A stretch of DNA of 64,000 bases from Nymphaea colorata (Eukaryota > Streptophyta > Magnoliopsida > Nymphaeales > Nymphaeaceae). Positions within the stretch are counted from its first letter, which is position 1. Every line of letters starts with the position of its first letter. The DNA lies in NCBI RefSeq assembly GCF_008831285.2, contig NC_045147.1:15664854-15728853 (forward strand), in the 5' to 3' direction. Below the pieces are notes generated by a model. It did no database searches. It was not told the origin of the DNA and saw only the letters and a program-made list of their open reading frames with translations. A program made the translations under genes and the position numbers. This document shows positions 15,564 to 60,006 of this stretch, piece after piece.

Positions 15564-17203
15564 TTACTGGAGCAAAATCCCAACTTGCCCACTGAAACTG
15601 TCCTTGATTTTGCTGTCTAATGCTTCAACTCTGTCGTAATCCAGTTTGAACATAACCAATGTAATCCCTTCTTTACCAGTCTCATAATCTTGCTGAATAT
15701 CCTCAACTTGGAATTTCTGAAGCTGTAAGCAGCACATCGTAAGTCAGTGCGCTAGAAAGTGGTGACCTGGGTATTCACTAAAAAATAGGTGGTGATTAGA
15801 ACGGCGAAGAATTATATGCAAACAGTACAGCATTTATATGGTTTAACCAATCACACTACTCTCTTCATTTGCACTGTTCAAGCAAAACCTAATAGCATAC
15901 AAACATACGCTAAACTCCTTGAGTAAAACCCAAGTAAACGTGAGCTACAGATGTGATTGTGGTCCACCTAATCACGCAACTCAGCACAGAATGCGTAACT
16001 TGCAACCGTAGAATAAAGCACCTGAAACAAATTTGATTGTCTAGGCTTACCAAATGGTATACAGTTCCCAAAAGGTCAAACGGCACTTCCAGACCAACTG
16101 AAACCTGAAAAGCAACATACTAAGGATGTTGTATTGCACTAATAATGCAACCTTCTCCCTAGAAAGCAATACATTCAGATTACTATTTGTCACCTTTGCT
16201 TTGACAAGGGAAGTAGGAGCATCTCTCAGGCAGTCTGCAGCAACTCCTCCATACGCCCTGACCAAGCCTCCAGTTCCTAATTCTATTCCTCCAAAGTATC
16301 TGAAATCCATGGCAAAAAGCTGATTAGCAATGGCTATCTCTTCTCGGCTCAGAGGCAGAGTACCAAGTAACAATCTTAAATTTCTGTTTCATTTCCACAA
16401 GCTGATGAATCAATTGAAAGGGACATGGCACAGACGGTCCTCTCTTATAATAAAAAAGCATCATTTCCTTGAACTGGTCATTAGATAGTAAGGAGAGAGG
16501 TGAAGGGCCAAGCCCCTCTACTTGTTTAAAAGCAACACGGATAGGGGAAGTCTCACTTTCTCTCTGACTCAAGTCAGGCCAGGCAAGATTGGGTACAATA
16601 AGGTCCTCTCCAAGCCCAACCCTGCTAAGAAATAGGTTGCAGTCTCTGTGGACCTAGAATTTGGTCTCCGATGAAACCATTTCAGATCCATAATCAGGTC
16701 AGCCCCCAACAGCCCAATTTCCACTCCTATGGACCCTGAAAGACTATACACTCCATTTCTTTCTCGACTGGCTGCACGATTCGGGGGAGAGAGGAGTTCA
16801 ACCGCTCAAGCATATCAAGGGATTTCAAGGATATGTTGTTCGGAAAGGTAGGTGGACACATCGCTCATCCCATCCCTGCTAAAAAGATTTTTTTTTCTTG
16901 AAAACTCAAATAAAAAGTTAAGAATAGGCAATATCCACAGAATAGAATGCAGCACAAATGTAAGTATTCAACTAGTGGCCCATCATTTAGTTGGTCATAG
17001 GCTAATGCTTTGAAAACAAAACTCAAAGCTGAGAGTATATAAGAAAAGGACAACTTATTCACCTTGTTACAACCACCATCACTCTATCAATTCCGGAGGA
17101 AACAATGGCAGAATATATTGGTCTACCAGCAGTACCTCCTGGTTCTCCATCATCATTACTCCGGTATTGATCTCCAAGCTAGAAGGAATAAATAAATAAT
17201 AAA

Positions 17204-20200: not shown

Positions 20201-22527
20201 TAGTAAACGACGATGTTTTGCATGGGTACAATATGGCAGAATTGTTTTTCTCAGGAAAATATTTATTCCAAAAATATTGATCTTTGCAAATTGCAAGATA
20301 ATTAAACATCGATTTATTCTTCCTTTGAAAAATGATTTGGACTACTGCTTCCCAACAGCACAATATCCATCAATTGCTCTTTTCAGTCAAGGGATTGTGC
20401 ATAGGGTGATCTGAAAACCCAGATCCCTGGAAGTTGACTGCCTTCTGGCTATAACAGACCATCTTTTCATTCAAAGTGGGTGCATCAATTATCATAATTG
20501 AGTCAATTTAGAAACATTAAAAATTAAAGGAACAATGGAACTCAATTCTTTCAATTACCAGACCACAGTTAAAGGTGTTGTGGAACACGAGCATAAAAGT
20601 TAACTTTTTGGAGATATCATCTACAGATTTTGCATAGTGTACCTCCCACACATGACCACCCATAGTTTTTGAGTGCTTATGTAGTGCATATAAAATTTCA
20701 AAAAATAAATTTGATGCCTGGGCCAAAAAATAAAGATGTTTCCCATATGTACTTCAAATGATTTTCACAATAAAGGCCAAGGCATCATCATGAACTTGAA
20801 TTTGCCTTCCAAAATCAAAATGCCTCTAAGGAAGACTGAAAAAACATTATACATCTGGTTATCAAGGATGTCACTGTTTCAAACTTTCAAAGGCCTGAAC
20901 CATTGAACATTCAAATGGTGATCATGTCAACAACCAAAAATCCCAAAAGCAATACCAATCATGACCTTCATTACCATCCCTACATAGATCAAAGTGACAC
21001 TAGAAGATCTACCTTCACATCGTGATTCTGATTATCCATTGCACCACAAACACATAAAGTTCTCAGAAAATCATCAAAATAATTTAGCAGCCAATCCAAC
21101 CCGATTCAATTCAAACATGTCGAATGACGAGTTTGATCATAACAAACCCTATGACTATTTACCTCAGGTTTGAAAAAAATCATCTCATCAAGCTTCCATT
21201 GCTACTATTATGCAAAACTAAGAGTTTAAAAAGTTCAAAGCTCTCACAGGATTCCAGAAGGTGTTCACCATCACTTCTATGGAGTTTAACAAGTGTCCAA
21301 TCTCTTTGCAAAATCCTTGGATGGTATCTCATTGGTAAGGATAAGGAGAAATTTGGACTTAATCTATGTGAGAGCATCAAAATGCTGAATCTTTTAAGAA
21401 TCACGTAAGCCTGCCAGATTGCAGTGCAATTACATCCCGTTTTTGTTATGTTAGGATTATATCAGTACGTGTAATCCACGGCTTATCTGACCCCTTGTAA
21501 GTCTCCTATTGACGGAGACAAGAATATCTCAGGCACAGGATGACCCTTCCTAGCATGTAAGCTTGCACTATCGGCATTTCTGGCATCATTAGTGATCGCT
21601 TAAGCAAGACCATCGTTTTTGTAGTTAGATATCTCCAATCCCTGGGAATTGGCTGATGCAGGACAGTTCATTTCTTCAGTTGGCCTACCCTCCGTAGTCT
21701 TTCTTTGCTGTGCCATTTCTTTGCTGTGCCATTTCACGGGTCAGAAGTCTCCTCTGGATGGAGAGAAGTATGTCTGAGGAATAGAATGACCCTTTCTTGC
21801 ATGTAAGATTAGCATCCTCGGCATTCCTGGCATCATTAGTGACAAGACCATCCTTTTTGTAGCTTGATATTTCCAATCCTTGTGAATCCGCTGATGAAGG
21901 ACAGTTTAGTTCTTCAGTTGGCCTACCCTCCATAGTCTTAGTTTGGTGCGCCATTCACAAGGTGCTACTAAGATAATAAGGGATACAAGGAGAAGAATCA
22001 GCAACAACCAAGTTTTCGCCCTTAGACCTCCACAAGAATCCCGCTTTCACTGAACACCAAAATAGGGGAAAAAGAAAATGTACTGCGAACCCAGAATGCA
22101 GTCTACTTTATCCCCTTTTTAATCATCTTACATATTTTCCCTACACGTCCTTACGGAATTCGAAAGATCATACCAACAAAGGAAAAAGGAGGGCAAAAGA
22201 GAAATAAAGAAAGGAACAAACGGGATCACCCACAAAGAATCCCGAAAGAGCATATACCTCAGAGAGAAAGGAGAAGGCGGATTCTTCGTCGACGATGGGA
22301 GCAGCGAACCCGATGAACTTGCTGCGCTTAATCTCCTTCTTGCAGGTAACTCGGCGGCTGAGCGTGATGTAGGATTGGCCCTGATCGTTGGCGGGAGATG
22401 AGGAAGCCGAGAAGGCGCGAGGAGTAGTGCTGCCTAGCATGGCCATCTGGCTCCTTGTGCTTCTGCACCTGGTTACGCCGTTGAAGAGGATGGCAGGAGA
22501 TTGCAGAATCCACGCCTTTCCCTTCAT
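15564..22527 (-). CDS. IMPACT/YigZ (UPF0029) family protein, organelle-targeted type
   Basis: Six exons on the minus strand: 22258-22527, 19481-19522, 17063-17178, 16194-16299, 16051-16104, 15564-15722. They join to 248 residues. The IMPACT N-terminal domain is clear: [16 protein letters not shown], then [25 protein letters not shown] (113-125) and [19 protein letters not shown] (143-161), followed by a small ferredoxin-like C-terminal domain as in bacterial YigZ. Family members fold like ribosomal S5 domain 2 proteins. Yeast and mammalian relatives regulate GCN2, but that role cannot be assumed here because the RWD domain is absent. About 60 residues precede the domain and look like a Ser/Arg-rich targeting peptide. 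An in-frame downstream Met at residue 28 is a possible alternative start. Introns 1 (2.7 kb) and 2 (2.3 kb) are long. Confidence 0.92.
17207..17236. repeat. (GA)n microsatellite in intron 2 of the IMPACT-family gene
   Basis: A 30-base GA run. Read on the gene's minus strand it is a (TC)n tract ending 28 bases before the exon 3 acceptor, so it lies where the polypyrimidine tract and branch site act. Confidence 0.95.
21501..21954 (-). repeat. imperfect tandem duplication of about 210 bp, gene-fragment-like, in an intron
   Basis: Copy 1 spans about 21501-21716 and copy 2 about 21747-21954, both beginning GTCTCCT and ending near TGCCATT or CGCCATT. Read on the minus strand, both copies keep a parallel reading: [20 protein letters not shown] in one and [20 protein letters not shown] in the other. 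Copy 1 also has an 8-11 base insertion and a stop. A smaller duplication of about 16 bases (TTTCTTTGCTGTGCCA) links them at about 21700-21732. This may be a captured exon repeated in tandem; I do not recognise the protein. Confidence 0.75.
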
Positions 22528-24730: not shown

Positions 24731-27700
24731 TCATAGACGAGCAACATATGAATTTGCATGTGTCACGTATCTCACCCACCGATACGGATTGTGTGTCTTT
24801 GATTTCTTGGCGATCTGCAAATACCTTACCTGCATCCAACAAAACATCATCATCACATACAGCATATAAATTGGAAGTGCCAACTTAAAAAATTCGGCAA
24901 CAAGAACAGTCGCTCTCTTAAAACACTTCGGGTCCTGATCTCAGGACCCCTCTTACTGTCCAATCCCTCAGAGTCTCAGACTTATTACCACATCTCTCCC
25001 ATCCATGCCCAGGTTCAAGCGAGAAATGGATGGAAACGCTAAAAAACCCCTTCTCAGCTCCAGCATGCCAGTGGCTGCTTTTCTTATATTTGTGCTCAAG
25101 TAGCCTTCTTCTGGCCATGTTGTCCCATTTGTTAGACGCTTCTGATATTCCATCCATTTTCGAGCCAACCACCAACTAAAAAATGGCTGATTTACCTTCG
25201 ACATGAACAGTGCAGCCCAGCCAGTTGACTGGCCGGAAAACAGTTATCTATGACTTTTTAGGGTTTCGGCAATACTTTTAATGGGTTTCTCGACCAATTT
25301 CTGGCATTCTGCAGTAAATTGATTCCGCTTGGTTCATTTTCCAGCCATTTGTTGAGCTGAATTTGTAACTATTTCTCACAAAATCAGGAATAACAAAATT
25401 GTAGTCGTCTGCATACAATACAACCTGAGTTCGACCAACAAGGTTTGCAAAGAAAGACCGGCTTTCAGTCAAAATCTGCATTCCTAATCCCAGCTTTGGC
25501 ACCATCGCCAAACAAATGCCTTACTATTTGAGACCTTCCTTTTTCCCATTAGCAGCCAAGGCAGGAGTGTATGATCATACGAGAATAATTTAGTATACCC
25601 CCTTCTACACGCTATAGGGCATCTAAATTTCCCTGCCGCTAGCCGACATAAAACATGCCTTTCAGTTGCACAACTGAATTTGCAGAAACAAGTTAAAGAA
25701 CACAAACTATGGAATATCTTAAGCAAACAGTAAGTTTGCTTCAGAAAATCAACAGGCGTCATGCAAGAAAAAACTATCACCAGAAACTTACACATTCAGT
25801 AAGAACTAGCTAAACCAGTCAGTTACCTGAAGCCTGGAGGCATTGTACATTGGAATTGTGAAATTCATGCTCACTGGCCCAGCTTCCCTCATTATATTTG
25901 CTGTTCAGAAGCAAAATGCAATTAATATTAAAATTGCTTGTCACATTAGACTGTTAATGGAAAACAATAGGCACAGGAAGTTAGTATCTCACTTGTTTTC
26001 TCCCTACAAAACAATGGAAGGACAAAGGACAAATTCAAAATAAAGCAAACTTATGCCCACCATGTGATTCCTGTGACAATGTAAGTTTTGCACGCAAGGT
26101 ATGCTCCGATCCACCAACAATCTGGATAATTGTTACATATAGTCAGTAAAATACATAAAAAACCAGCTGCATAGGGAAGATAACTATGCATAACCAATCT
26201 CATCAGAACTGTAGAAAGGATCTTGCCTTTTTCAAGTTCCATTCAAGCTTTCTATTTGCCTCTTTAAAATCTGTAATTTGACCTATTGCACCAGGTTCCA
26301 GTTCGTAGCTAACCCTGAGGAAATAATAGTAAATTTAAGCAAGAGTTTTATTGGAGGACACAGCAAACCTAGAGGTGAAATAAACCTAAGCTTTAGTTTT
26401 CCAAGTCAATATGACTGAACTAAAAGAAGCATGATAGAGATGCAGAAAATCATTTCTTGAGCAGAACCTCGGCCCATGGACATCAGAGAATACAGTCCAT
26501 AGCTATAGAAAGGTGCAAGTCATGCATGACAAGGAGGCTCATGCACACCCATCTTGCCATTGGAATTAACATGACTGGAGGAAAAAAAAATATATAACAT
26601 GACAAAAAAAAATATGCAAACCCATTTTGTCATTGTAGTTTCCTTTGAGACCATGCAAGATACAAATGAACTTTAGCAACTTACAAAGAGATTGTGCCCC
26701 CTCAGAAAGCATGAGATAGAATTTTGCTTCTCTCAGCAAATTTCAAAGAAATTGCTCACTTTGACTATAGAAAAATGGGTGCCAATAATTATAGTTATTA
26801 TAATGTGTGAGAAGGAATATACTTATATCAACAAGATATTTTGCATATCACAGGATGTTGTATGATATGTACCATAATAAGGAAGAACGATAGAATACTT
26901 TCAGGGGCATATGGTTCCCTCCCATATTTGGTCCCTTTTCCACTGAAATCCTGTATTCTATGACCTGATGAAACATAAAGTATTGCAGAATACAAGCAAG
27001 CAGGAACACAAAAAGGGGCAGAACTTCCCCCTACTGAAGGGATGCCACTCTACCACACTCTTTATAGTGTTGCAGGAGGGCCATCTACAAATTTGGGGGA
27101 AAATAATGCAATTTGTGATCGTGTCATGAAGGAAGATTTTAGTAGTCCTTTTTGTGTAGCAGCCCATTTCATCCTCTAAAGTCAAAAGATTCATTTATTT
27201 CCATTATTATTGGGCTGCTTGACCAAATTATTAGTACTGAGTGGAATTCCTGCTTGTGCAACAAGTTTTTATGTTAACCAATGATTCATGGAACTAATAA
27301 TTAATTGAGCATGTAATTTTCTGATACATGTATGCATAGCATCATTTTTTTCTGCATTATGATCATTTAAATATTTTCTTCATTTTTCTATTTTGAAAAC
27401 TTCCAAAGAACATCAATGTTCTATGTCGATGCTACAGAATATCTCCTTTTGGGTTTGATCTAGACTGGTTGCAATATACAACTGACATTCAACTGAAGGA
27501 ATTACATGGATCACCATAAAAAATGCACTAGCAGCATAAATGATATATATAACCTTGTTGTGTAAGTTGGCAGTGGCATATGCACTGAAATTGTGTTTGC
27601 AGTTATGGTAGGCGAGAAATCAGCCCGTACTTTCAAAATTACTTCTGCCTGAAAATTAAAATGAAAGACCACGAAACTGATAAGAGACCTCTTTCTTTTC

Positions 27701-30700
27701 ACAAAAAAAGACATTACAGATCCAGAGTTTCTGGCCTTTAAATACTTGAAATTATGCAAACATGCCTTGAAAGATCCAGCTTCTTCGATAACAGCATTGA
27801 CCCGAAAGGGAGGCTTGAATTCCTGAGTCATACGATAGTTCATGACAGAAAATTCTCCATCAGGTGGTACCTGCAAAACTCAGAATAATAGAAATGTCTC
27901 TGAGTAAAGTGCAACACTAAGCAAATTATTAGCTCAACCTTTGAAGGAGGCCATCTAGATAACAAGCAGCAATTCAGAACCAAAAGATGCAGCATGATAA
28001 ACTTGAGTCTGGTTAGGACAGTAATGCACATAATGGGAGAATGGTGTTACAGGACTCCAATACACAAGCCATCATTCAAATGCCACAATCTACATGTCAA
28101 AGCAAGATATGATCCATTATCTATACTTGACAATCAGACCTTTCAGGCCTTTCAAAATGATCGCAACAAGTTGAATCAATTTCCAACTAAATACTAACCA
28201 GAGTCAAGGTCCTGTCCAAGTCAAAATTTTCAAGATGCACCGTCTCATGGAAATTACAGTCATCCAATACCACTGGCCCCACCCCAGCAGAACCACCGAA
28301 ACCTGAAACAACAAAAAATGGATACTGATGTACATGTGGAACATAGGTTTTACGAGAAAGTGCATTATTTAATTTAAGATGCTGCTAGTTTGGAGGCTAC
28401 CAATGCCAGGCATACCACCAATCTTTTTGTCGTACATGAGATACATTACTTCACAATGTTCACATATCTAAGGGCATCGCTGAAAAGAAAGAGAACTGAT
28501 GCATGTCCTTACATCTTTTCTTCACAGTTCAAGAGTGGACCTCAACTAAACTGGGTGTAACTGATATATGATTCTAGCTTGCCAGATTGTGCTAGCAATA
28601 TATGTCTCCTAATCTTTTGAGGAGGAAGGAGCTGTCATGCATATTTGCACTATTTCTCACCTTGAGCTCCACCAATAAAAAGTGCCATAATTACTGAAGA
28701 ATGGGCAGAAACATGCAGCCATTGTGCTTTCAAAAATCTTTCTGAAGGATTAAACTAGTTGAATGAGTGAAGAACCCCCGCGTGCAAAGAATTTTTTATC
28801 CCCATCTACTTAGTATAAACAAAGAAAACAAAAAGATTTTTTCTTGGTCATGGTATACCAGTAAGATAATAAATTAATAAGTTATCACTAGTTGAGCTAC
28901 AGTGCATACAGAATGGAATCAACATTAAGAGGGTAGGCAGGATCGACTGCATTTCTTAATGGGTGCATGCTTCAGCAACTAATGCAGACACAAGGCAAAA
29001 AATGATGCATACCATAGGCAGAACTTCCTCCCCTCCCAATGCTTAGCTCTTCATTAAGGGCAAGACGGATTTCTGGGTTTCCAGTAAGATAACTTTTCAT
29101 TTGAATGGTGCCATCAATCTCAGAAGTCAAGATATAACCCTGGCATCAAGAAATCAATTTATATGCTCTGTCTGAAACTCAGGTGAATAAGAGAAGGGAC
29201 CACAGGAGAAGAAAGAGTTAACCACTAATCAAATAATTGAAAAAAGGTGCAAGCAATATGACTATTGGTTTGCATGAATCAACATCTGACAAGTTCACAA
29301 AAGCATCAGGGGACAAGATGATGCCTCATTCATGTAAAATAGCATATCAGTTTGGCTGTTTAGATTTTGTACCAAAAGATAATGCTAGCAGTTATATTAA
29401 ACTTGCAGATAGATTGGAGGCATCACCAATGGGCATTTTGGTAAAGAGCATTTGTACAAAATTATGATGCTAGATTATAGGATACTTTTAAAAACTGAAT
29501 TGAGATAATTAACAACTTTCAGTGGGCAGCAAACTAGTTCCGGTTGGGGCTCCACTGAACTTTGTCACTACCATTTTTCCCAAAAACTCCTAAAATCAAG
29601 GACAAGAAAGGGGTTCAGCAGTGTGTCCAATTTATCATCTAAGATCTGGTGAGCGTTCATATGGATACCCTTTTCATTCCAACAGGAATTCACATTCGCC
29701 AAGACAACCACATATCCAGACACACTGTTAAATTGTGAAACATGCATAAGCATATGTATGCGTGTGCGCGTGTGCATGAGCAGGTATCCATGTGTCCTCA
29801 TATAGGCATGTCCGTCACCACACAAGGTTCCAAATTTAGAATAAAATACTTATTGGTTAAAAAAAAGAGTTACCCACATACCTGTGTGAGGACATGTACT
29901 CACATAAGAGACAGCCACATCTATTCACATACATCACACCCCTATCTAGTCACAAAATTTTTGCACTTTACTTGCTATTTAATACGTTAAATAGAAATGC
30001 CTTGTCAATAAGCACTAAGCACTAAATGACAAGATGAGATCCCCATGTGGTGAACCATCAAATACTTGTATAGTTAAATGTTTTCCAAAGGAAGGAACTG
30101 GCTGTTGATTAAGTTTGCTGCAGCCATGAGAGCACGAAACAATTTTGGTCCAGATAACAAAAGGACTTGATTGTCACAGTCTTTAGCCCTTTGAGTTAAT
30201 GCAATGTCAATTTTCAATGTAAATTTCAACCTAATAAATCATGAGTACATCCACCAGCTCTTGATCTCTACACCTCTATGGCTGGATTTTTTCTGAGGAA
30301 TGGTTCAAACAAAACATGACCTAGCTAGAAATACAGGAAAATACTTACACTTGAACTGAAAGTGACACTGATTTTCTCAATAATATCAACAAAGATTTCC
30401 TCTCTCTTTTTACCCCCAGGTTCATTGGCAACAACTGATTTTGTCACTGCTGTTCCTGGCATTCTTTTTGATCCATGCTGAGAAATACACATAGAACCAA
30501 ACAAATGAATACTTGAAGTTCGTAAAAAGATAGTCTTCAAGGTAGCCATTAATGAAGCCAATCACTATCCAAGCTCATAATTACCACAAAGATAGCTGCA
30601 GGACCAAGTGGTGGCAAACGTGCAGCATCAACCACAATTGGCTCATTGAAGATGTATGACTTCAATACCTCAGTAGAAGTAGTTTGTGGATAACCAAAGT

Positions 30701-33109
30701 CCTTGTGCAACAGAAGAAACCAATTACAAGACGTAACTTAAAACACCACTACACTAACTCAAACTGAAAATGGTAAAAAAGAAAATTATCCATCCTAAGT
30801 CACAAAGTCATCTCCCCTCCATCAATCAATTAATCTGCTTGGAAGCTGACTTTCGAAGGGAACTTATGAAATTGGAAAAACAAAACTGGCGGTTCCTTGA
30901 ATTCATTGACAGATGTTACCTCTAGAAGGTGGTTAATAATTACAAATTCTTGATTCCACTCATAGCCACAAACATTGCCGATAGTTAGAAAATATCCTGA
31001 TATTTAACCATTTAAACCAGCCATTACTGTCCAACAAGTATCCTGATATTTTCAAAATCATTGCCAAAAAGAAAAATATCATGATACAATTGCAATATCG
31101 TCCTGAGCCGTTCCCAATATTTACCTGAGAGTCTGAAACATTGAAAAAAGTCCTTTTTCATGATTTTTCAGTATGTGACTTTTTTTTTTTTTGCTTGTTT
31201 CTTTATGTTTTCAGAGAGTTTTTTTTACTTGTTTGATAATATTTTTAGAAGAAAAATACTAGAAAACCTATTATCTCAAAACCTTTTTTTGTCTTCTTAA
31301 CATTTTCCAACTTTTAAAGCTTCCTAAATTTCCTAATAGTTTCCTGATAAATTACTGAGAAAATTATTGGTGACTCTGTTTTGAGTGCAACATTGACCCA
31401 CTTCCAACTCAAATCCTCCTTATCTCATCCAACAGGTCGAAAAGAGATCATAAATGACACACTACCATAAAGGTAACATACTCATCTTCGGATTGCTTGA
31501 AATCAATATTTGCACCAGAATACTCATCCAATGACTTGAAAAGTACAACCAGACACGATCCTAGTTTTGCTTAGGTGAGCTGTAACGGTCGGAGTATCGC
31601 ATATGGGATCAAAGCAATGCTAAATATCATTGCTTCACTTCTAGATATATATGATGCGCTAACATTAATATTAAATAGCATCATCTTCTATTGCCATATT
31701 CCAATATCTCTTGTTTCAAAATGATTAATTAACCAACGGACAACATCCTGGCAAGGTGGACAGACACAAAGGAAGTTCGAGGATTTGATTCCAAAGTATT
31801 GTAAAAATGAACAAAAGAAAAATCTGAGAACAAGTGCTTACGATAACTTCATCTAACAGCTCATACACAAGAACAAAATTTTTTCTCAGCGATTCCTCAC
31901 TGAGCACACCAAGATAATCTTTGATGACACGAGCAATCCTTTGCAATAGCTCCAAAACAAGAGAAGGAGACACATTGACCCTTGTTGTAGCAACAAACAG
32001 CAAGCCAGCCACCTTTACATGAATATAATTTACACCATCCAAATTCTGCAAAGGAAAAAGATAAAATTAAAAAGGACATCAAGAAGTCAGGTACAGGCAT
32101 TTCAATTCAACATCATTACATTGTAAATTGGATGAAAATATAATGTCTGATAACCAACGACATATATAGACCGACCTGTCGGACTCCTTATATGGCTAAT
32201 TATGTAATCATAGGACACCAAGGAGTACGACTACGAACTAACTATTAAAGCAGGAATAATATTTCTCACTTTATGCTTGGCTAGAGAATTGCATTTAGAA
32301 AGCATTCCATATCAGAAAGGTTTTGAAATAAGAACAAAACTTACAAGTACCCACACCATTGAAAGAAAGAAAAATATAAATCCTCAAAAACAGTTCTCCT
32401 TGGGTTAGAAAACAGGGGAAGAGAGAGAGCGGAATGGCGGAGATAGGTTACTTCAGTTTAAGGAGCAGTCGAGCTCAAATTCTCCAGTCACCAAGGACTC
32501 TGAACCAGCGGGATCGAAATTCACAAGGAAGGAAGGAGACACAGAAGAAGACAAGGATAACAAGCGAAGTAACGGAAACGAAAACCTGGAAGAGAAAAAC
32601 AGTAATAACCGTTCCCCACACCAAGGACGTCCGCTAAAAAACGGCCTTTCAGTGAAGGGATACCTACAAAGACAGGGGGTGCCTCCTCGCCTTCGTCTCC
32701 CTTCCAAAACTTGACTTTGCGAAAGAAAACCTCTGCGCTCCCTTTCTGCACTTCACCGCGATCTGCATTGCCATAAAAAACAGAGGACCTTTAACTCAAT
32801 CGGTATTCGATAGACACGAAATTGAAGTTCAAACTACGCGGAAAATGAATTCAACGCCTCATTTCCACGAGAAGCACTCAGATCCCTAATTGTTCCTCCA
32901 AGTAAAAAGATAATCACTACGCACAAGTTGCAAGTTTGTGATCAGGGGGTCAAAATGATAAGACGAACCCTAGATACACGAGAGCAGGCGGTTATCAAGA
33001 AGAAAAATAGAAAGGAAAGAGCAAACAAAAGGAAAGGGTCGTGGAACTCACAATCGCGGAAGACGATGTTATCTCCCCTCTGAGATAATACGAAGAATTG
33101 ACAGATCAT
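24731..33109 (-). CDS. AP4M: AP-4 complex subunit mu
   Basis: Thirteen exons on the minus strand: 33052-33109, 32668-32762, 31842-32045, 30585-30701, 30349-30477, 29013-29139, 28199-28302, 27766-27870, 27554-27648, 26227-26314, 26061-26121, 25827-25900, 24731-24829. They join to 451 residues, the length of the Arabidopsis protein as I recall it. It is the medium subunit of the AP-4 adaptor, which selects cargo (in plants, vacuolar sorting receptors) at the trans-Golgi network. Residues 1 to about 140 form the longin-like domain (FFVLSQRGDNIVFRD at the start); residues about 180-451 form the mu homology domain (EIFVDIIEKISVTFSSSGYI, ELEPGAIGQITDFKEANRKL, ending YNPYRWVRYVTHANSYVARL). Introns 8 and 10 use GC donors (AAG|GCATGT and AAG|GCAAGA). 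The start is the ATG that begins the conserved N-terminus, with Cys at residue 3. Confidence 0.95.
29750..29778. repeat. 29-base alternating purine-pyrimidine tract in AP4M intron 5
   Basis: From GCATATGTATGC through CGTGTGCGCGTGTGCATG every base alternates purine and pyrimidine, with a CG/TG-rich core. Such tracts can adopt left-handed Z-DNA. It sits inside the intron between exons 5 and 6 of AP4M; no function is evident. Confidence 0.85.

Positions 33110-44018: not shown

Positions 44019-44022
<4 letters not shown>

Positions 44023-44053
<31 letters not shown>
44023..44053. repeat. (TC)n microsatellite
   Basis: About 31 bases of uninterrupted TC repeat in intergenic DNA downstream of GPA1. 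Confidence 0.95.
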
Positions 44054-45267: not shown

Positions 45268-48200
45268 TCACAGTAAACCTGCCTCAATTAAGCTTCTCCT
45301 CCTCAAAGTCTCATCCACCAATTTGAAAGTTTTCTTAACAAGTTTCTGATCCAGTGCTGTTGTCCTGTATATCTTAAAAATTCGGTCAACATGGTTTGGA
45401 GTGCTGCTCTGGAAGTATAACTCTTCAAATTTCTTCTTCACAAACCTGATAAAGGAAGAAGCTAGGTCAGACATATATAAGTCAATCATATGGATGGAAG
45501 TGGTGGCACCATGTGTATCCACAATTTATTTGCATATTCAAACAAGTTTGCAAGGTGCAAATTCAGCAGTTGTGGCTTCTATGGGGTTTCTTATAATTTG
45601 GATATGCTATTTTGGGTATATCTGCATCACAACTATACTTGAAAATGATTGTAAAATCTAATACAGGATGACAGAATATCACATAAAACTTAATTGTATC
45701 TTCACTCTTTTGTTTTCCTTTTGACGACAATGTTTGGCTGGCTTTGGGAATCAATTGCGGCAGGATGATTCACTAGTGCAACTTCATGACATCTCATAGT
45801 GAAACAGGGGCCACATCTCTTCATTTTAGTAAACAGTCTCTTCACATCCCTTTGTACATTATGCACCTAGAGGTTTCTGACCACAAACTGTGGTTCAAAT
45901 TCCAATTAACTTTCTGCTGCATAGCAGATGCAAGCCAGTTGATGTGTCAGAAAACTGAAAGACCATCGTAGCACTATCTAAAACCGATTACAGAAATAAA
46001 GTAGCCTCTCCCAACCCCGAAAAGTGGAAATAGAAAATCTTGTCAGAAAGAGAACAACCCTGGAGGAAATATTCAATTCTTTAAGCAGACAACATAATTT
46101 GGGCAATTCTTGGTAGACAGTAGCAAGTACTGATTTGAAACATCTAATAAATTTGGACTTTTACCAGGTTTTAATTTGGCAGATGCTGACTCAGAATATA
46201 AAATAGAGGCATCACAATATCCTCTATGTAAAATCTAATACAAGCAAGGGCATAGGGGCATCAAGACTGTATCTAAGGCTGCATGCATGTCCTCAATGTG
46301 TCAGCATGCCTTTTAAGTGCATCCAGACAATGACATGAGACCTCAATAAACAACTATTAGAACCCCAAGACAAGAATCAAAAACATCACTGATTCAGGTA
46401 AAACTGTAACTAGATATTTTACAAACATAAAAGAAAAAACCATTGACTTACTCATAAGCATGCTCGACCTCTTGCTTTCCTGATGAAATGGGTTGATAAT
46501 CTTTGAACCACTCACAGACACTAAGAGGAACCTGCAAAAGAAGACAGGTCAATACTTACTTTGGGAGTTCCTGTGATGATCAGAAGGCTAAAACCTCACC
46601 TTCAAAACTTTCTTCTCAAATAGATCGAACTTGTTTAGGAACAATAAGAAGCATGTTTTCTGCATCGAGAATTGAACATCAGACAACAAAACTTCTCAAC
46701 CTATATCATGAAGCTTGTGTTATGCATAGAACCTCAAAACATTGCTGCTTCAGAACCCAATCAAAAAGCCCCTTAGTTTCCATGATGCGGTTCTTGCTTT
46801 CATCCTCAAAAAGCACCTGATCATACCTGGTTCATTAAACAGAAGCAGATCAACACAACCTGCAGAATGCTAGGTTCACTTAATTTTTAAAATACTTCAA
46901 ATGCTCCAGAAAGGTCGAAAATTCAAGCAGAAGTAGTGTTGTCATTGATGATCTTGTGATATGAGAATGATTAGCCATTTACTCGCTAATTGCAGCACAA
47001 AAGATTACAGCAGTAACGCCTTCGAACAGATGAATCCACTTCCTTCTCTCATTTCTCTGCCCACCAACATCAAAGAGCCTATAGACTTGCCCACTCTTTT
47101 TGTTCTCACCCACAGGACTGCAAAGAAACATTCTTAGCGTTTAATATTTCATAGAGAATATCGTATATGTGGGAAAAAGAAAGAGAATGCAAGAAACACA
47201 TGTAATTTTAAAGTTTAAACCTCATCATGAACTTTTATGTTACTAACCACAACAGGTTGGTAGTCTAAACAACTTCAAGAAGTTCTTAGTGAGCTTCTTT
47301 CAGCATAAAAACATTAACGAGAAAACAGTAACGGAAATGTTCACATGTCTGCATGTATGTTTGAAGTTTTGAACTTTATTCGTGCTTGGCTTGCCTAAAC
47401 TGCGCTCAAGCTGGACCTGAATTGTAAACAAGTTAAGCTTAACCCTATAGGTGAAGCTCATTTCATAGATGAGCCAATTTGAAGAGATCCAATCTAAGCT
47501 CGAACTTTATGATTCTTAGTTCAGCTTCAGCTCAGTTCACACTCAGCTTGTGCATACCCCTTCTTTTGACTACACAAATAACAAATTGTGTAATTCCAAA
47601 CCTTATATGAAGCAAATGGATTAAAATAACCTTGGACCGTGCGACGGATAATTTTACCTGAACTGTATTTCTACAACACCTGTAGTACGAACTCTAGCAT
47701 AAAGAACATCCTCCTGCAAAGATTAAAAAATTGAGGCAAGAAGTTCAGTAACAGCATAATGACTAAGAGACTTGCAGTCCAAGATAGAAACTACTCTCTC
47801 TACACAGAGAGCTCATATAGCATTTTTTATTTTGTTTGGCATAAGAATTAGCTACATAGAACACTGGAGAAAAGACGATGCCTCAGGAACCCACACGACC
47901 AGCATATAGCCATATACAGTCTTTTGAGAAATATCTTACTTATTAGCCACAGGATAGGACAGTGGAACAGATTATTTGCATACTCGACACATCACTGCTG
48001 ATCAACAATCACAGAACTAGGAACATACCCCAGGTAAACCCAACTAATTTGACTCATGAATTGTGTCAATCAACCTGGACCAAGTTCTAATTATTACAAT
48101 TCACAATCATGGATCCAAATTCTTTCTCCGTTTCAGTTTACAGCAATTTCCTCTCTATATAAGACCATGATTGCTTCAACAAGGTCCAAAGGCCAAAATT

Positions 48201-51200
48201 AAATTCAAGGGTACCTCTTATGCATTATCTACCTTGCATATTATGACTTCCAAGCACAATGCTCACAGAAAGATGCTACCTACTAAGAATCAAATAATCA
48301 AAATTCAGTAGTATAGCTCAGTTACTAGTTGACATATTTTAATAATTTTAAAGTGATTATTGCTGCAAAATATTGGTATGCTAACACTAGAATTTTTTGT
48401 AATAACTCGTCCTTGTTACTGAATTGATCTGCTGTATCGGCAAATCAACCACAAGCTGATCTTAGTTCAAGTCACAAGCTTGCTAAGTTCTAACCATGGC
48501 ATCAGGTCTGTAGTCTAGAATATTGACTACAGCTTAAGGAAGCTTTTCTTCAATGACTATTATACATTTATTGACTAAGAGACATTTCAGTCAATGATCT
48601 TTAAAGGGGGTTTCAGCATGTTATTTAGCATATGGTGAAGGACAAGTTAGATGGTACCCGAGGTCTACTACTGCATGCAAATGCTTCAAATCTTTATGAT
48701 CAGACAGAAATAACCCACCACAAATATCAGCAACAGGAACATGTTGCGAATCATGATTTATTATGATATGTTACAAGATATGGAAACCATGCACTTCACA
48801 GTAAATAATTCATTTATTACTCATTTTTCTCGGTAGAATTTAGCTGTGGATGCAAATGGATTAGATACAGAAGATGGTGGATCAGACTCGGGAATGCTGT
48901 ATCAAAGTACAAAACCATCAATAGATAAGAAAGTTCCCATTCAGATGTATGTGAATATACTTCCTTTAACGAACTTGTATTCTACTTAATGCAATGTACA
49001 ATCAATTTATCTGCACCCCAAACTTTAACATGATGTTGGGAACTAAAAGGAGCACATATTAGATTTGCTGGCAGTTGGTTTCTTTGGCTTAGTTTGCTTA
49101 ACTTATTTAACACAAGAAAAGATTCTCTTAATTTTCTTAATCCTCATAAGCAAGATAATAATATAGAAACAATATATGTAAGCAATGAGAGCTCCAGAAG
49201 GGAATATAACAGTAAAGCAACCAAGTTTGGTAAATGAACCTTTGTTGGTACATAGTCAGCATCAGATAATCTCTGCAAATTTTCCATAAAATACAGTGTA
49301 CAATCTGGAACTTGAAGTTCATTTGCTCGGACATAAGTTTCCTACAACCACAGCAGTAATAATTAGAAATCACATCAAGTATCTCCGAGTATCATGACTG
49401 AAACAGTATAGACATTTGCTGATGTGCAAAACTAAAGCTGATTTGACTGCAAAAAAAAGTAACCTGAATTGCAGGATCTTTCCATAAAGTCTCTATCTCT
49501 TTGGCGAGCTCCTTCGTCAAGGGAGGATAATCTAGTCTGCTCCCCATTTCAGACAGTTTGTCTCCAATCTCCTATTATATTGCAATATCAGGTTAGTCAA
49601 TAGAAAATAGGAAAAGGACAAATTAAATGGTTTCAGTTTGAGAATGCAATGAAATAATATCAAATATAAAAAAGCAAAGCAATAGATAGGAAAAGTGAAG
49701 GACTCAGATGGAGAGCACAATGAAACAATACAGAAAGCTTGGCAATTTGAAAAACACAGATGCTGAGGTGTGTGTTTGGAGGCAGAAGTTTGTACATATA
49801 TCTGTGTGTGTCATTGCCACAAATATTGCTCTTTGATATTTCTTAAAAGCTTCATGTAGGATTTTTTTTTTTTTCATTTTGTTAAGTAAAACATGGAAAG
49901 TAAAATATACATGTATATAACAAAAATTTGTGAAATTGTAAATTTTTTTATTAATTTCCTTATAAAAATTCCATATAGTTTTCAAAACCTTAAAAGAAAT
50001 TGAAAAATGGAAACATTCGCTTAAAGTACATAATAGAGAAAAGGATGTTCTGAAAAGAGCAAAATATCATTCAATTGATCCGACTCCAAAACAGAAGGAT
50101 TTACAATATTGTGTACTTTATGGTAACATTTTGACAATATCACAATATTTCCCCGATAAAAATATTTCATTCTGTTTAGGCAATATTATTGCAATATTTT
50201 CAAAATATCTCCAATAACCTTGTCCCATACTCTCTCTCTCTCTCTCTCTATACAGTTTATATATATATATATATAAACCGTATTCATATGGATTCTGAAA
50301 GGTTACGAATATACCCTTGTTAATTAATGTGTCAGAGGCATAAAAAAAGGAACTTAAACTTTGTCCTAATTAGAACCCTACTGATGAACATAGCATCTCA
50401 CAAACACACCTGTATCATACTCTAGTGACATGGTAAGGTATATGGCTAAGTTACAATAGCAGTAGAAATGTAGATTATTTTGTGAAACTAAGAAAAGGTT
50501 GGGATCACAAAGACAGTAATGAAAATATAATCACGCTGAAGCATTGCCAGCATCATGAATTTCTAACAAGAAAAAGGTTAGCAGATTAAGCTGTGATATT
50601 TCAGAAAGCACGATTCACCAACTTCACATGATTCTATAACCGGAAGAGAATTTAAAGATATTCTTGTTGGATATTGAAATAATGCTATTCGATTTGAGAG
50701 CACAGAAAAATAAGTTACCTTTTAATGTGGTAAGAAAAGCCTGTGACAAGTGCAGACTCGATATGGAAGAAAGAAGCACGTTGATGTGCTACAACATACA
50801 GCTTCTTCCCAATCATTGCTATCAGAGTGAGGGTTCCTCTATGTTATCAAAAGGGGTCATATTGAGCCTAAATTGATCATGATGCCATCATCTTAAGTGG
50901 TTTGACATTGATAACTGTGAAAGTATGTAAACAATTGTCCATGATAGCATGTGGTGTTGGTATTAAAGCATGCCCATTGAGCACTTCACGTCATTATCTG
51001 GTATGTTGCAAGAAATTAAAATGCATCCAGATTTTCAAGATATCATTTTATTTAACTTTTTGAATTTAGGGAATATGATTTTACTTTATTTTTTTATGAG
51101 AATTCAAGGAGTGCAAATATTTCAAAATCCAAACTAAAGAATGTATGGGCAAAAAATTATTATGAAAGACTTCACCAAACATGGAGATGATAAACCCCAA

Positions 51201-53324
51201 CAAAATCATGACATCACCAAAATATTGCAGATCTTCAGTTCTATCTCAATGCTAACATATGTTTCTGCGTTTAGACTTTTAAGAAGATCAGTTATCTCAG
51301 AATTTTTATATCTAATAGGCTCATTTTCTAGATCTCGGTCCAGGAAGAGCTACCCATCCGGTCAAGAGAATATCTTTGTCCAGAAAATGTGATAATTGCA
51401 ATTCATCATATTTAAACTATATATGTGTGTGTGGACCAGCAGTACAAAATTTCCCTGGAATGAAGCATAGGAAATATGAACTAGTGAATAGAATACATAA
51501 AAAAGAATGTTTGTGTCACATAAGCAATTAAGCACCCATAAGTAGGACTTAGGAAACACCGGCATTAACATGTATACCAGCAGACATAGAGTATATGGTG
51601 CTACCTTGATGAAGGGTGCTCAGAAAAAAAATAAAGGGACTGGCATGGAAAGACAACAAAAAGAAAGGGGAAAAAAAGACAACGATTATCTATAAGACAA
51701 ATGATATTGTGATGGTGACCAGGATCTGCTTTTCAAATTTGAACCAATTGCTGTGGATAATTTCTTCCTTAAGTGTGCATCATGCCAATTATCACGCAGC
51801 TACACAACCATGGACAACAGAATGTTGCTGCAGCAATTTGAAGAACAATAAAGCAGCAAGCTTGAGCAAGTTGATCATAAAATACGCAAATAGCAGGCAA
51901 TGGCCCTGGACATGTTAGTGATCAGCTTGAGATGTGGTTACCATGCATGTCATTTTCTAGAATATTACGAAGAACAAGAAATTACTTAATAGAATAGTTC
52001 ATCCCAAAATAAAAAGAGAAAACAATTCCAATGTAAATAAGACGGATATAGAAGAAGAAAAGAAAAGAAACGAGGCCTAAAAGATAAGGCATCTGCAAAC
52101 CTTATTTTCAAGAGACAAAACGTACTTTGAAGAGTCCTCATCATTCTGAGCAAACTCCTTTGAGCCATCATACAATATCTGCAAAAAATATCCTCGGTTA
52201 ACCCCAATCAAAGATCACAACACATGCAACGATTGTGAATACAGAGAACAAAAAAAAGAAAAAGAAAAACAGATAACACACACTACAGTTGTTGGTCATA
52301 AAAGGGAAACAACCAACACACCCTTTCTAGTATTGCATACTTTAATTGTCTGATATATATTTGCATGGATAACTGGTGTATAGCTCCTAAGCTCTGCCTC
52401 ATCAAATCCTGATTGAAACAAAAATTTGATCTGCATGTAGTGGAGTAAAACAATGTCAGAAGACCAGCAGCTGTCTAAATTTTGCAAAAGTTCATAGTCA
52501 AGAAGGAAAATATGTTGACCTGCTTGAAGATAGTAGACTTTCCCGACTCAGCAGCACCTGATCCAACATAGTTCTCAATGTTTAACATAATATGTACCAT
52601 TGTGTTTGAAAATACACTAATTGGACAAATATATTGAAGAAAGGCCAACAATCCATAGCGGTGAATCAAAGAACAACTCTTAAAGCTTAGGATGAATAGA
52701 TGATGCGTTAGAGCCACAAAGGTGTGTTTTGGGCATCTAGACCTTGACCATGGAGGCATGGTGCAAGCATGCAGTGACCTGTGAAGAAGTGTGTTCTGTG
52801 GGGTTGGGATGGGCAAGGTGCTGTGTCAGCTTAGAAGGGAGGTAATAGGTCAGTGTATGCTTGCATGCATGTGTAATATCATTAGGATCACCAAAGAAAC
52901 TCCTCAAACTTCTTGGTCAGACATTCATATTTAGAAAAGGGAAAGGAGTTGCTTGTAATAAAAAAATTGGATTGAGATTCCATAAAATCTAACCTAGTAG
53001 CAGCAGCTTCTGAATATGCTTCTCGGCTTTTGTTTCCAAAGCAATCTGGCGTTCTATTTCTGCAGCCTGAACGAAGAACACATTTCAATGGTAAAGAGGC
53101 ATTCAAAACTAGAAGTCTCTCCACTTTGCTGAAATAGTTCAAATTCAAGACATCTAACATCAACTACCTCACTTGCAGCCAACTGATGAAGTGGAAACTC
53201 AAGATATCAAAGATCATCTACCCTTACTAACAACAAAACAGAGAGTCAATGGGAGCTGAACCTGAGCACTTTCTTCAGCATCAGCTTCAGAGTGAGGTCT
53301 TTGTCTGCTGCAGAGTAGGCCCAT
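45268..53324 (-). CDS. GPA1: heterotrimeric G-protein alpha subunit
   Basis: Thirteen exons on the minus strand: 53262-53324, 52994-53066, 52521-52558, 52341-52430, 52101-52178, 49464-49571, 49240-49341, 47658-47713, 46983-47117, 46733-46826, 46600-46659, 46452-46531, 45268-45445. They join to 384 residues (Arabidopsis GPA1 is 383). It is the GTP-binding switch of the plasma-membrane heterotrimer. MGLLCSR at the start carries Gly2 and Cys5 for myristoylation and palmitoylation. Switch I has RVRTTG (Arg191, Thr194), switch [14 protein letters not shown] (Gln223), and the guanine-specificity motifs NKFD and TALDQK are intact. The P-loop is odd: GAAESGKST (46-54), with Ala48 where GAGESGKST or GAGDSGKST is usual. 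The full helical domain and canonical GKST exclude an extra-large G protein. All introns are GT-AG. Confidence 0.96.
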
Positions 53325-55400
53325 ATTCTCAATTACGCTGGAAAGCATCGAACTAGTAATCGGAAACTATACGACAGTGTGCCAGACAAACTTTCTGTAA
53401 GGAAGAAGAAAGAAATCCTTCCAAGGAGAAACCAGAAAGCTTATGATCGAGTTCACCAATCTAGGATTCCATACGAATGACACAACATGCTTCGCTCAGC
53501 GCAGCAATCCTGAAGAACCAAAAAGCCAATAAACATACATGAATAGTCTGCACAAGGTTGAGTCCGTGTCAAGTACATGCAAAAATATTGAAACGAGCCC
53601 GGTATACAACATTCGATAGTTAACAAGATGCATTATTTAGGCAATGGTGTCGCTTTTTTCAGCAAGATGGTCTGAGAAAAATGGGGCCTCTTCAGTTCAA
53701 TAAAGAGCCAAGTTGCCAACAAACTAAAGACTAAGCAAGTTGAAAGTTAAACGCATTCATCACCGGACATCGAAGCACATTGATTCAGATCGGACGCCAG
53801 TTCTAAACTCAAGTCGACGAAAACCGGGAACCAAATACACGATAGGCAAAAGCGGGAACGCTGACAAGGAAAGCACTCGGGCAGAGTGACAAGCATCGCA
53901 AAAGATGAACCAGCAGCAGCAAATAATGCATCACATCCAAGACACGGGAGGAGGGAGACGAAGATCGAGTAAAAACGCAAACCACAAAAACAAAGGAAAC
54001 CAAACGCATCAGAGGGAACCCCCAAAAGAGAAAGATAACACAATAAAGGGGAGGGAGCAATCACCGGGGACTCTGAAATCGATTGCAGATAAAGAGCGAG
54101 GGACGGGAAGAGCGAGGCGACCTCCCCTCCCCGCCGGATCATGAGGCCCGACACGGTGGCCGCTTGAGAACAACGCGAGGGGGAGTGAGATGAGGTGGCG
54201 GGCGGGGCAGAGCGGGACTGGCGGTCGTGGCGGCAGCGACGGTGACAGCGGCCGGCTCAACTGATGAAAAGAGGGGCCGGTCAGCGAAGGGAGGATCAGA
54301 CAGTCAAACTGAAAGAGAAAGGGGACGGCAGTGGGTCGTGCACTTCGACGTTTTGCTGACGGCGATTTCGAGGGAGAAGTGGCCGGAAGATGCAACGGAG
54401 AGCGCAACAGAAGGAGCCACGTGGTGAAGCCATTTTTGTGTTTTTTAATGAGAGGTGGGGGGATGGGAGAGCGGCGCAGCGAGTGGGGGAGACCGAGCCG
54501 CGATGCTAATTTTCTTGGTCGGGTAAAGGACGGGAATCACATTTCTCGAGGAGGTAAATTTTTTTCTCTTCAAAAATCACAAAAGATATTGTGCTCAAGT
54601 CTTCTTCACATTTAATTTTTGTTTTGAATATCAAGTTCTTTAGATTCAACTCATGGATTTTTTGGGGATTTTGGTTTGTGTTTGAATTAGATTTAAACTA
54701 AATCCCAACAAGGGATGAATTAATTTAGCAAAATGAATCTTCGTTCATGCAATTTGAACTATGTTTGAGTTATGTGTTATGTAAACAAAAAATTGATTTA
54801 TGCAAGCCATTAGATTTTATTTACCATGAGAAATTTTATAACAATTTAGCCTGTCAATTTTGAGTAAAGCTAACTCAAAACATCTAAGGTGGACTCACTT
54901 GAATGCCTTCAATGATTGCATATAAATATCCACAAGTTTACGAGCGTTTTTTTCTTTACCTAACTCATTAAAAATATTAAATTGTACTCTACGCAGTCCT
55001 AGCTTTATAGTGCATGTACGGTCTTTGGAAATGTGCTTGCATTTTTAATGTTTTCAGAAACGAACTTAAGTTCTTTGAAATATTTCAAATTTCATGCTCA
55101 AGTTGCCAAAAAAAAAAATTAATGACACCTAAATTTTAAATTTTCTTTTTGAATTATTTAAAGATGATCTTCTGGTTTTCAAAAGACATTCACGTTGTTT
55201 GGAGTGATCATGTGTCTTCATGAACGTTTCATGCAACTCTTTTATATTATATGGCAGGACAAATGTACCTTTACAAAAAAAGTCCGACCTCTTAGGAGGC
55301 ACATTTATGTGATAGAAAAGCATAGTTTTTTTTTGCAACATATTGTTTCACAATTTTACTTTAAAAAAATACATATTCGTTCCAAAGAACACACATGAAC
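53325..55400. other. GPA1 leader/promoter region and AT-rich flank
   Basis: From about 53750 to 54540 the DNA is markedly richer in GC than its surroundings and is the likely GPA1 promoter and noncoding first exon, with a leader intron between it and the ATG; the exact donor is unclear. Overlapping open frames there on both strands are explained by composition. Beyond 54550 the sequence is AT-rich and shows nothing I can name. Confidence 0.5.
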
Positions 55401-58009: not shown

Positions 58010-60006
58010 AAGTCTGAGATTTTTGTTAGAACCATTGTGGACTGCCACATGTTGGAAATTCAGAGAATTCTTCAATGGCCTAATGGGGATCTTCCTTCAA
58101 GTCCCTTGGGCTCCCCTTGTTTTTGGGAAACCTTATTGAAGATCTATGCTTACCACTTCTCACTAAGGTGGAAAAGAGGTTGGCTGGATGGAAGACTCGG
58201 ATTTTGTCCTACGCGGGACGGTTATGTCTCATCCGTTATGTGTTGATGACATTACCCTACTACTGGATGATGGCGTTTGGATTACCAACTATTGTGTTAA
58301 AGAAAATGCAGCAAGCTTGTATCAAATTCATGTGGAATGAGGGAGATGGTGCACGACACATGCATCTTGTTAAGTGGGATCGACTTTGCATGCCGGTTGA
58401 GGAAGGTGGAGTTGGTATTAGAAGATTAGAAGAAGTGAATAGAGTGTTGCTTGCTAGCAGATGCTGTCGGCTTTTGACCTACGGGACACCTTAGGCCAAC
58501 ATTTTTAAGGATAAGTATTTGAGTCACCATAGTCCTTGGACTTTTAAAAAAGCTCCTAACCAAAGCTAGGGCTGGAAAGGATTGCGGTGGGGTTGGAGTT
58601 TGATCCAGGACAAAGTTGAGTGAAAAATTGGTAATGGAGAATGGACCAGGTTTTGGACGGATCGTTGGTTGGGGCAAGTGCTCTTATATAGAGTTGATGC
58701 GAATGGGTATTCATTGCCGTGTAGGGAGTTTAAGATCAGTGTTCGAGAGATTACATGTGGGAGGCAGGATAGCTAGTCTTTTGCCATTGCTAGGAGTCTT
58801 GGAGTGTCCATTGATAACATTAGGCTTATGGAGACTGAGGACAAGCTAGTCTGGAGTGAAGATGGTAAGGCGACTTTCAAAGCTGGTGAGATTATCAAGA
58901 AGTGTCGTACTCAGGGTGTTAAAGAGTGGTGGTGGAAGAAGATTTGGGCTACCTACGCTCCAACCAAGAGCTGCCAGCACACCTACATTGCTTGTGCAGG
59001 CAGACTTCCCACTCATGATAGACTTCAGAAAGCTGGAATTCAATCTTGCCAATCGTTGTTCATTGTGCCTTTGTGCGGAGGAGACTAATGGTCATATCTT
59101 AATTAAGTGTAAAGTTGCCAAGGAAGTATGGCGGTATGTTGCTGCAAAGTTTGGTAGAGTGAAGTTGCCCCAAGGTGAGATTGTAACTGAGTTCCAAAAA
59201 TGGTTACAAGCTAAGATTTCGGGGAAGTGGACACGGCGGTGCTGGAGAATGTCCTTCTTAGTTTCCTGCTGGAGCCTGTGGCAACTAAGAAACAGATGCT
59301 TCCATGACAGCCTTCAATCCCATATTGGTAGGATCAAAAGAGAGGTTTGGAGGAATTGCATAGATAGTTTTTTCTCTGTCAATTGGCCGCCTGAGGTTAT
59401 ACAGAAATTGAAAATTTGGTTGGAAACTGGGCTCTACAGTGTTGACACTATTGGCTTCGATACAAGTAGTATGACTATTAACATTGGTAGAGCTCACACC
59501 AGGCATGGACCGAGAATAGCTGGATTAAGCTATGAGGATAATGGTCAATTGGGTTGTGCCGTCATTATCAAAGACCGGGGCAGAATCTATGAGGGCGAAA
59601 TGGAAGTATTGGAGCGCATTCTTAGATTCCATAAGGAATATGGTGGTGACTATATTATCATCTTCCCAACTAAAGAATGGGTGAGAAAAATTACACAGTT
59701 GTTGGAAGGGAGAAGGACGAATGCTGGCTGGACTAGGTGTTTTAGCCAACTTCAGGGGAGAATTTCAATGAAGCAGGAGTTGATTTAGGCCGTCTGATCA
59801 TGGAACATGCCCATGGGCCCAATGACTATTTTGCTGACTTCAATGTATAGACATAGTTTGGTGGATATGGTTGTTTTCAATTTTTTTGTGAAGAGTTGGG
59901 ACAATCCTTTGTTTTTTTACTATTAAGGTCGCTTGGCCTTTCCTTATACATACTCATTTTGTTGAAATAAAGGAAGGGGGCCTAACCCCCAAGCAAGCTT
60001 TTACTT
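58010..60006 (+). mobile_element. 5'-truncated L1-type LINE, inactivated
   Basis: The insert starts within the C-terminal part of reverse transcriptase and runs through LTKVEKRLAGWKTRILSYAG and CLIRYVLMTLPYYWMMAFGL (58117-58494), typical of plant LINE ORF2. A stretch with several stops follows, then the zf-RVT region (WWWKKIWATYAPTKS, 58804 onward). A frame change near 59040 leads into a long frame to 59788 with CSLC, H and C zinc-ligand spacing (LANRCSLCLCAEETNGHILI). The last 100 or so residues resemble a degenerate RNase H-like domain. A 15-bp duplication flanks it. No poly(A) tail precedes the right copy, which is unusual for L1-type insertions. Confidence 0.85.

Follow-up and report, generated by a model that had tools for sequence, protein, structure and literature searches.

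The P-loop Gly of interest here corresponds to Ras Gly12 and to G-alpha-i1 Gly42 (PMC3285607). Among the mutants described at this position, KRAS G12A and three other KRAS mutants are reported in a review to hydrolyze GTP about 40-80-fold more slowly; GAP-mediated hydrolysis in the KRAS mutants is down 97-99%, with G12A retaining a 15-25-fold stimulation by GAP (PMC6813200). A drastically reduced GTPase is also reported for G-alpha-i1 G42V, because the Val side chain blocks Gln204 (PMC3285607). The sequence-only reading of the present DNA had taken it as known that any side chain here slows GTP hydrolysis, which is too general; namely, Ras G12P is described as not constitutively active, and G-alpha-i1 G42R hydrolyzes GTP normally, its active shape being out of reach (PMC3285607).

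Residues other than Gly also occur naturally at this position. The chains named G(z) among the solved-structure sequences, from the vertebrate G-alpha-z, carry Ser at residue 42 in the loop GTSNSGKS; basal GTP hydrolysis by this protein is reported as fairly slow, at 0.0021 per second, and only a restricted group of RGS proteins deactivates it (PMC7572916). Among Rabs, 50% or more are also given as having Ser at this position (PMC4531439). G-alpha1 of Naegleria fowleri has a natural Ala at this P-loop position within the residues TAQ; when TAQ was moved into G-alpha2, hydrolysis became slower and activation quicker, the protein was activated by GTP alone, and its acceleration by two tested RGS domains was abolished, while the reverse swap made hydrolysis by G-alpha1 faster, yet no RGS action was gained (PMC9283941). 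The swap moved all of TAQ at once, and its effects are those of the three residues jointly and not of Ala by itself.

In plants, reported rates per min are 5.80 for exchange and 0.047 for hydrolysis in Arabidopsis G-alpha, 0.92 and 0.052 in the rice protein, and a faster hydrolysis of 0.87 in the liverwort protein (PMC3386157); a review gives 1.4-4.4 for exchange and 0.12 for hydrolysis in Arabidopsis (PMC8584482). By the approximation of PMC3386157, the GTP-bound share in Arabidopsis and rice without RGS is about 0.92-0.99. Whether plants need GTP hydrolysis by G-alpha and RGS is a standing question. RGS is reported to have been lost repeatedly in plants with no obvious fitness effect (PMC11061236), and traits of gpa1 were rescued by GTP-locked GPA1 (many) and by nucleotide-free GPA1 (many, not all), while in maize a GTP-locked G-alpha behaved as a weak allele (PMC8584482).

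In the window, namely the whole 64,000-nucleotide stretch of Nymphaea colorata DNA analyzed here, an intact gene for a canonical plant G-alpha of the GPA1 type lies on the minus strand, with the following features.

45268-53324, minus strand: gene for a canonical GPA1-type G-alpha, complete from start codon to stop in 13 coding exons, 384 aa
52994-53066, minus strand: exon 2, with LLLL and then base 1 of the Gly46 codon at its end
52520-52557, minus strand: exon 3, P-loop, completing Gly46 and then encoding 12 residues, with AG and GT at its flanks
52550-52552, minus strand: GCT codon of Ala48, at the site of Ras Gly12 and G-alpha-i1 Gly42
47658-47713, minus strand: exon 8, switch I with Arg191 (catalytic), Thr194 (Mg) and Thr195 (RGS contact)
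46983-47117, minus strand: exon 9, switch II with Gln223 in DVGGQ

When spliced, the 13 coding exons give 1155 bases and 384 residues in a frame without frameshift or internal stop, and GT-AG borders are found in 12 of the 12 introns. A pseudogene is rejected on the open frame, the splice sites and the motifs. The Pfam G-alpha domain (PF00503) is matched at 352.6 bits (cut-off 48.8) over residues 21-372, covering positions 3-332 of the 333 in the profile. Among the best 60 of 353 matches to solved structures, plant G-alphas come first, namely those of Arabidopsis (665.5 bits), rice (657.1 bits) and Selaginella (427.1 bits), with the next at 239.3 bits. In alignment with these proteins, the window protein is 83% identical to Arabidopsis GPA1 (2xtz, aligned without its first residues), 76% to rice RGA1 (8vgb) and 53% to Selaginella GPA (8vga).

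The residues Arg191, Thr194 and Gln223, which had been called intact, are all present in the spliced protein, so that the catalytic Arg, the Mg-binding Thr and the switch II Gln are kept and the catalytic residues of switch I and II are those of the Arabidopsis, rice and Selaginella proteins. It is Thr194 in the window numbering that is the Mg-binding Thr, and the RGS-contacting residue is Thr195, aligned with Thr194 in Arabidopsis and Asn195 in rice; Thr at this contact is shared with Arabidopsis GPA1 and Selaginella GPA. The Asn of rice was reported to lower RGS affinity (PMC3386157), but a single-residue cause of RGS loss is described in a later paper as not supported (PMC11061236).

The 384-aa protein begins with MGLLCSR, but another ATG in the same frame is located 8 codons before this start. 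In canonical plant G-alpha, a Met-Gly N-terminus serves lipid anchoring. If the upstream ATG (53325-53348, minus strand) is used, the product is a 392-aa protein with MLSSVIEN before MGLLCSR, and Met-Gly is no longer N-terminal; cucumber CsGPA1 has been reported as 392 aa. By eye, we also noticed an AT/GA simple repeat inside intron 5 of the gene (50229-50276) and a GA microsatellite downstream of it (about 44020-44053).

Exon 3 supplies the remainder of the P-loop after exon 2, and residues 46-54 of the 13-exon spliced translation read GAAESGKST. The proposal that Ala occupies the Ras Gly12-equivalent site of this protein therefore holds, while its coordinates needed slight correction. The codon had been placed at 52551-52553 and the edge of exon 3 at 52558, each one base off: GCT sits at 52552-52550, and the exon is 52557-52520. 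The span given before, 52521-52558, still translates to 12 residues of the P-loop region, since the intron likewise ends in G. Residue 48 is confirmed as Ala in the sequence as given. At the corresponding position, Gly is aligned in all three plant relatives (Arabidopsis, rice and Selaginella). The middle base of the codon, 52551, decides between Ala and Gly, GCT being one base away from GGT, and Ala48 would most simply have arisen by a single change of GGT into GCT.

We also asked whether the gene could make Gly another way. Joins across intron 2 were tried with donors starting in exon 2 and reaching up to 30 bases inside exon 3, and acceptors at least 40 bases on, as far as the end of exon 3; among these 2341 joins, 144 were open and read ESGKST, and in all 144 the preceding residue was Ala. 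Splicing that restores Gly is ruled out within these joins, GCT preceding GAG in the same exon, and an alternative exon with Gly, which the sequence-only reading had named as contrary evidence, did not appear. A six-frame scan of the window with a loose Walker motif, which sees unsplit P-loops and would miss any interrupted by an intron, gave 7 matches, only one of which was of G-alpha type, namely the known P-loop; no second G-alpha-type P-loop was found at this scope.

The gene is not unusually diverged. Arabidopsis, rice and Selaginella share 163 columns, and the window protein differs at 9 of them (G48A, L61F, T65S, V83I, I123M, M262I, E267G, S282C and I292L), compared with 7 of 161 for Arabidopsis and 15 of 169 for rice when counted like for like. 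G48A is the only one of the nine within a nucleotide-binding motif. The G-alpha P-loop had been described as reading GAGESGKS or GAGDSGKS, but the motif is wider: a review states a stringent G1 motif of G(A/T/Q/P)G(E/D)SGK(S/T) (PMC8584482), Selaginella GPA has GSGESGKS, and the G-alpha-z and Naegleria loops given above depart still otherwise. GAAESGKS misses the stringent motif at the third position (Ala) with the remaining positions fitting, and the Selaginella loop likewise misses it, at the second position. On its whole sequence, the window protein is classed as a canonical plant G-alpha, as a variant of it.

Extra-large G proteins (XLG), which have a long N-terminal extension, are also plant relatives of G-alpha. 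Membership in this group is rejected for the window protein, which has 384 aa (392 from the upstream ATG) and motifs intact except at residue 48; in XLG, the altered nucleotide motifs are reported to be very weakly conserved (PMC8584482), whereas the window protein differs at one residue. In text searches of the literature, to which figures and supplements are closed, the string GAAESGKS was not found, and neither G47A nor G48A was among the matches listed. Searches for relatives in prokaryote and viral collections gave 365 and 83 pattern matches, respectively, none of them confirmed, as expected of a eukaryotic gene.

How, then, does Ala48 compare with the described systems? As in Naegleria G-alpha1, a slow and RGS-refractory G-alpha, the residue at the Gly42 position is a natural Ala, and that organism is reported to have 7TM-RGS proteins and some self-activating G-alphas; the flanking residues nonetheless differ (TAQ versus AAE in the window protein), Naegleria G-alpha1 is reported as not self-activating, and its host is a distant amoeba (PMC9283941). 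G-alpha-z shares a natural non-Gly residue and a slow basal GTPase, but its residue is Ser, Asn replaces the next Glu, and some RGS proteins still deactivate it (PMC7572916). KRAS G12A and G-alpha-i1 G42V share the structural position, and G12A is the identical exchange, but both are disease or laboratory mutants and not natural orthologues.

We consider it about an even chance (roughly 0.5) that the gene is a canonical GPA1 in which one base change from Gly to Ala has left a protein with slower GTP hydrolysis and a weak or absent response to RGS. The methyl group of Ala48 would crowd the space that Gln223 needs for orienting the attacking water; GTP hydrolysis would then be slower, and the RGS-assisted transition state would form poorly. 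Since plant G-alphas load GTP by themselves, such a protein would be almost wholly GTP-bound. It would answer RGS weakly or not at all, while G-beta-gamma binding and functions independent of the nucleotide cycle would be kept. Judged by the described systems, Ala48 would probably make this protein more difficult to switch off, and slower hydrolysis together with weaker RGS action is our best guess. The sequence-only reading had likewise suggested slower hydrolysis or lower RGS sensitivity, and this part agrees with KRAS G12A, G-alpha-i1 G42V and Naegleria G-alpha1, as far as such analogies carry.

The relevance that it had seen for plants fares less evenly. With hydrolysis 40-fold slower, the same approximation of PMC3386157 puts the GTP-bound share at about 0.998 or above. 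The G-alphas of Arabidopsis and rice are mostly GTP-loaded already, and intrinsic slowing would therefore matter little, shifting GTP loading by only a few points; an effect would come through RGS control. In a toy sum in which the RGS gains are assumed and are not plant-protein values, a 100-fold gain lowers the GTP-bound share of the normal protein to 0.55, while one resembling KRAS G12A, with 40-fold slower hydrolysis and a gain of 25, remains at 0.995. Lost RGS control, and not higher GTP loading, is thus the likely effect by this reasoning. RasGAP has an arginine finger, which RGS proteins are not known to have. The G12A figures come from Ras with RasGAP, and this weighs against the reading. 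The slow hydrolysis found in Arabidopsis and rice despite Gly at this position also weighs against slowness by Ala (PMC3386157), as do, against lost RGS control, the reverse Naegleria swap with no RGS action gained (PMC9283941) and the G-alpha-z that some RGS proteins deactivate despite its Ser (PMC7572916).

Somewhat unlikely, in our estimate, is that Ala48 is real and nearly neutral, with a modest slowing by Ala, RGS still effective and the plant little affected. The Pfam model favors such a view. In a 76-residue piece, replacing Gly48 costs 1.6 bits for Ala, 1.0 for Ser, 1.8 for Asp and 2.8 for Val, and Ala elsewhere costs 3.9 at Gly46, 3.8 at Gly51, 4.3 at Lys52, 3.7 at Ser53 and 2.7 at Glu49, these being smoothed model scores and not a residue census; with the whole protein, the difference between Gly and Ala at residue 48 is 2.1 bits. 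The penalty of 1.6-2.1 bits, against 3.7-4.3 at Gly46, Gly51, Lys52 and Ser53, means that the family as modeled tolerates change here more, and this mild penalty weighs against a strong effect. Near-neutrality would also suit the Ser of G-alpha-z with its few deactivating RGS proteins (PMC7572916), the Ser of many Rabs (PMC4531439), the high GTP-bound share already computed for Arabidopsis and rice, and the rescue of many gpa1 traits by GTP-locked and by nucleotide-free Arabidopsis GPA1 alike (PMC8584482). It sits poorly, however, with the strong impairment reported for the identical exchange in KRAS (PMC6813200) and with the loss of RGS action in the Naegleria swap (PMC9283941).

It is improbable that Ala48 stems from an error of base calling or assembly, or is an allele peculiar to the sequenced plant (somatic or private) in a species otherwise having Gly. 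Such an origin would take one base, the relatives all have Gly, and the codon is read from a single assembled sequence; on the other hand, the window contains no N, the 1155 coding bases run without frameshift, stop or broken splice site, and a substitution error at exactly base 52551 has a small prior. Very improbable is a protein locked in the inactive state, which would hydrolyze GTP with switches that never reach the active shape: G42R at the same position acts so in three mammalian G-alphas (PMC3285607), but its effect needs a bulky charged side chain, Ala is even smaller than Val, and G42V is reported as active-locked (PMC3285607). Decay of the gene, with function being lost from the canonical G-alpha of this lineage and Ala48 an early hit, is hardly credible, although a growing redundancy of canonical G-alpha in plants has been suggested (PMC11061236), given the open frame, the 12 of 12 GT-AG introns, the retained switch residues and a count of departures (9/163) intermediate between those of Arabidopsis and rice.

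A wild plant with Ala48 in its G-alpha, at a P-loop residue that sets hydrolysis, would offer a natural test of the need for hydrolysis and RGS in plants. We regard as doubtful a stronger form of the RGS-insensitive reading, in which the lineage has fixed a Ras-G12A-like substitution and so has a natural, heritable G-alpha that is permanently GTP-loaded and deaf to RGS. If true, evolution would have found one more escape from RGS control, next to losing the RGS gene and to the change proposed for the RGS contact, and there would be evidence that this plant can do without the GTPase cycle. If Ala48 were common to relatives that keep RGS1, uncoupling would be seen to precede RGS loss; an error, on the other hand, would deserve correction.

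Across the window, no RNA family reached its gathering score, and a scan on bacterial settings gave no tRNAs. An ORF piece at 7802-8230 on the plus strand matches carbonic anhydrase (Pro_CA, 26.6 bits, cut-off 25.7). On the minus strand, the ORF at 16047-16388 weakly matches UPF0029 (28.5 bits against a cut-off of 27), and that at 22168-22527, with no family matched, resembles by eye the start of a UPF0029-type gene. Also on the minus strand, the ORF at 27511-27879 has a 45.8-bit match to the adaptor complex medium subunit, and the one at 31725-32066, again without a family match, resembles its N-terminal part by eye; the subunit is perhaps AP-4 mu. Upstream of the G-alpha gene, a plus-strand ORF at 58850-59788 matches zf-RVT (29.0 bits, cut-off 27.5) and is probably the remains of a LINE-type element, part of which the ORF at 58084-58494, matched to no family, also appears by eye to be.
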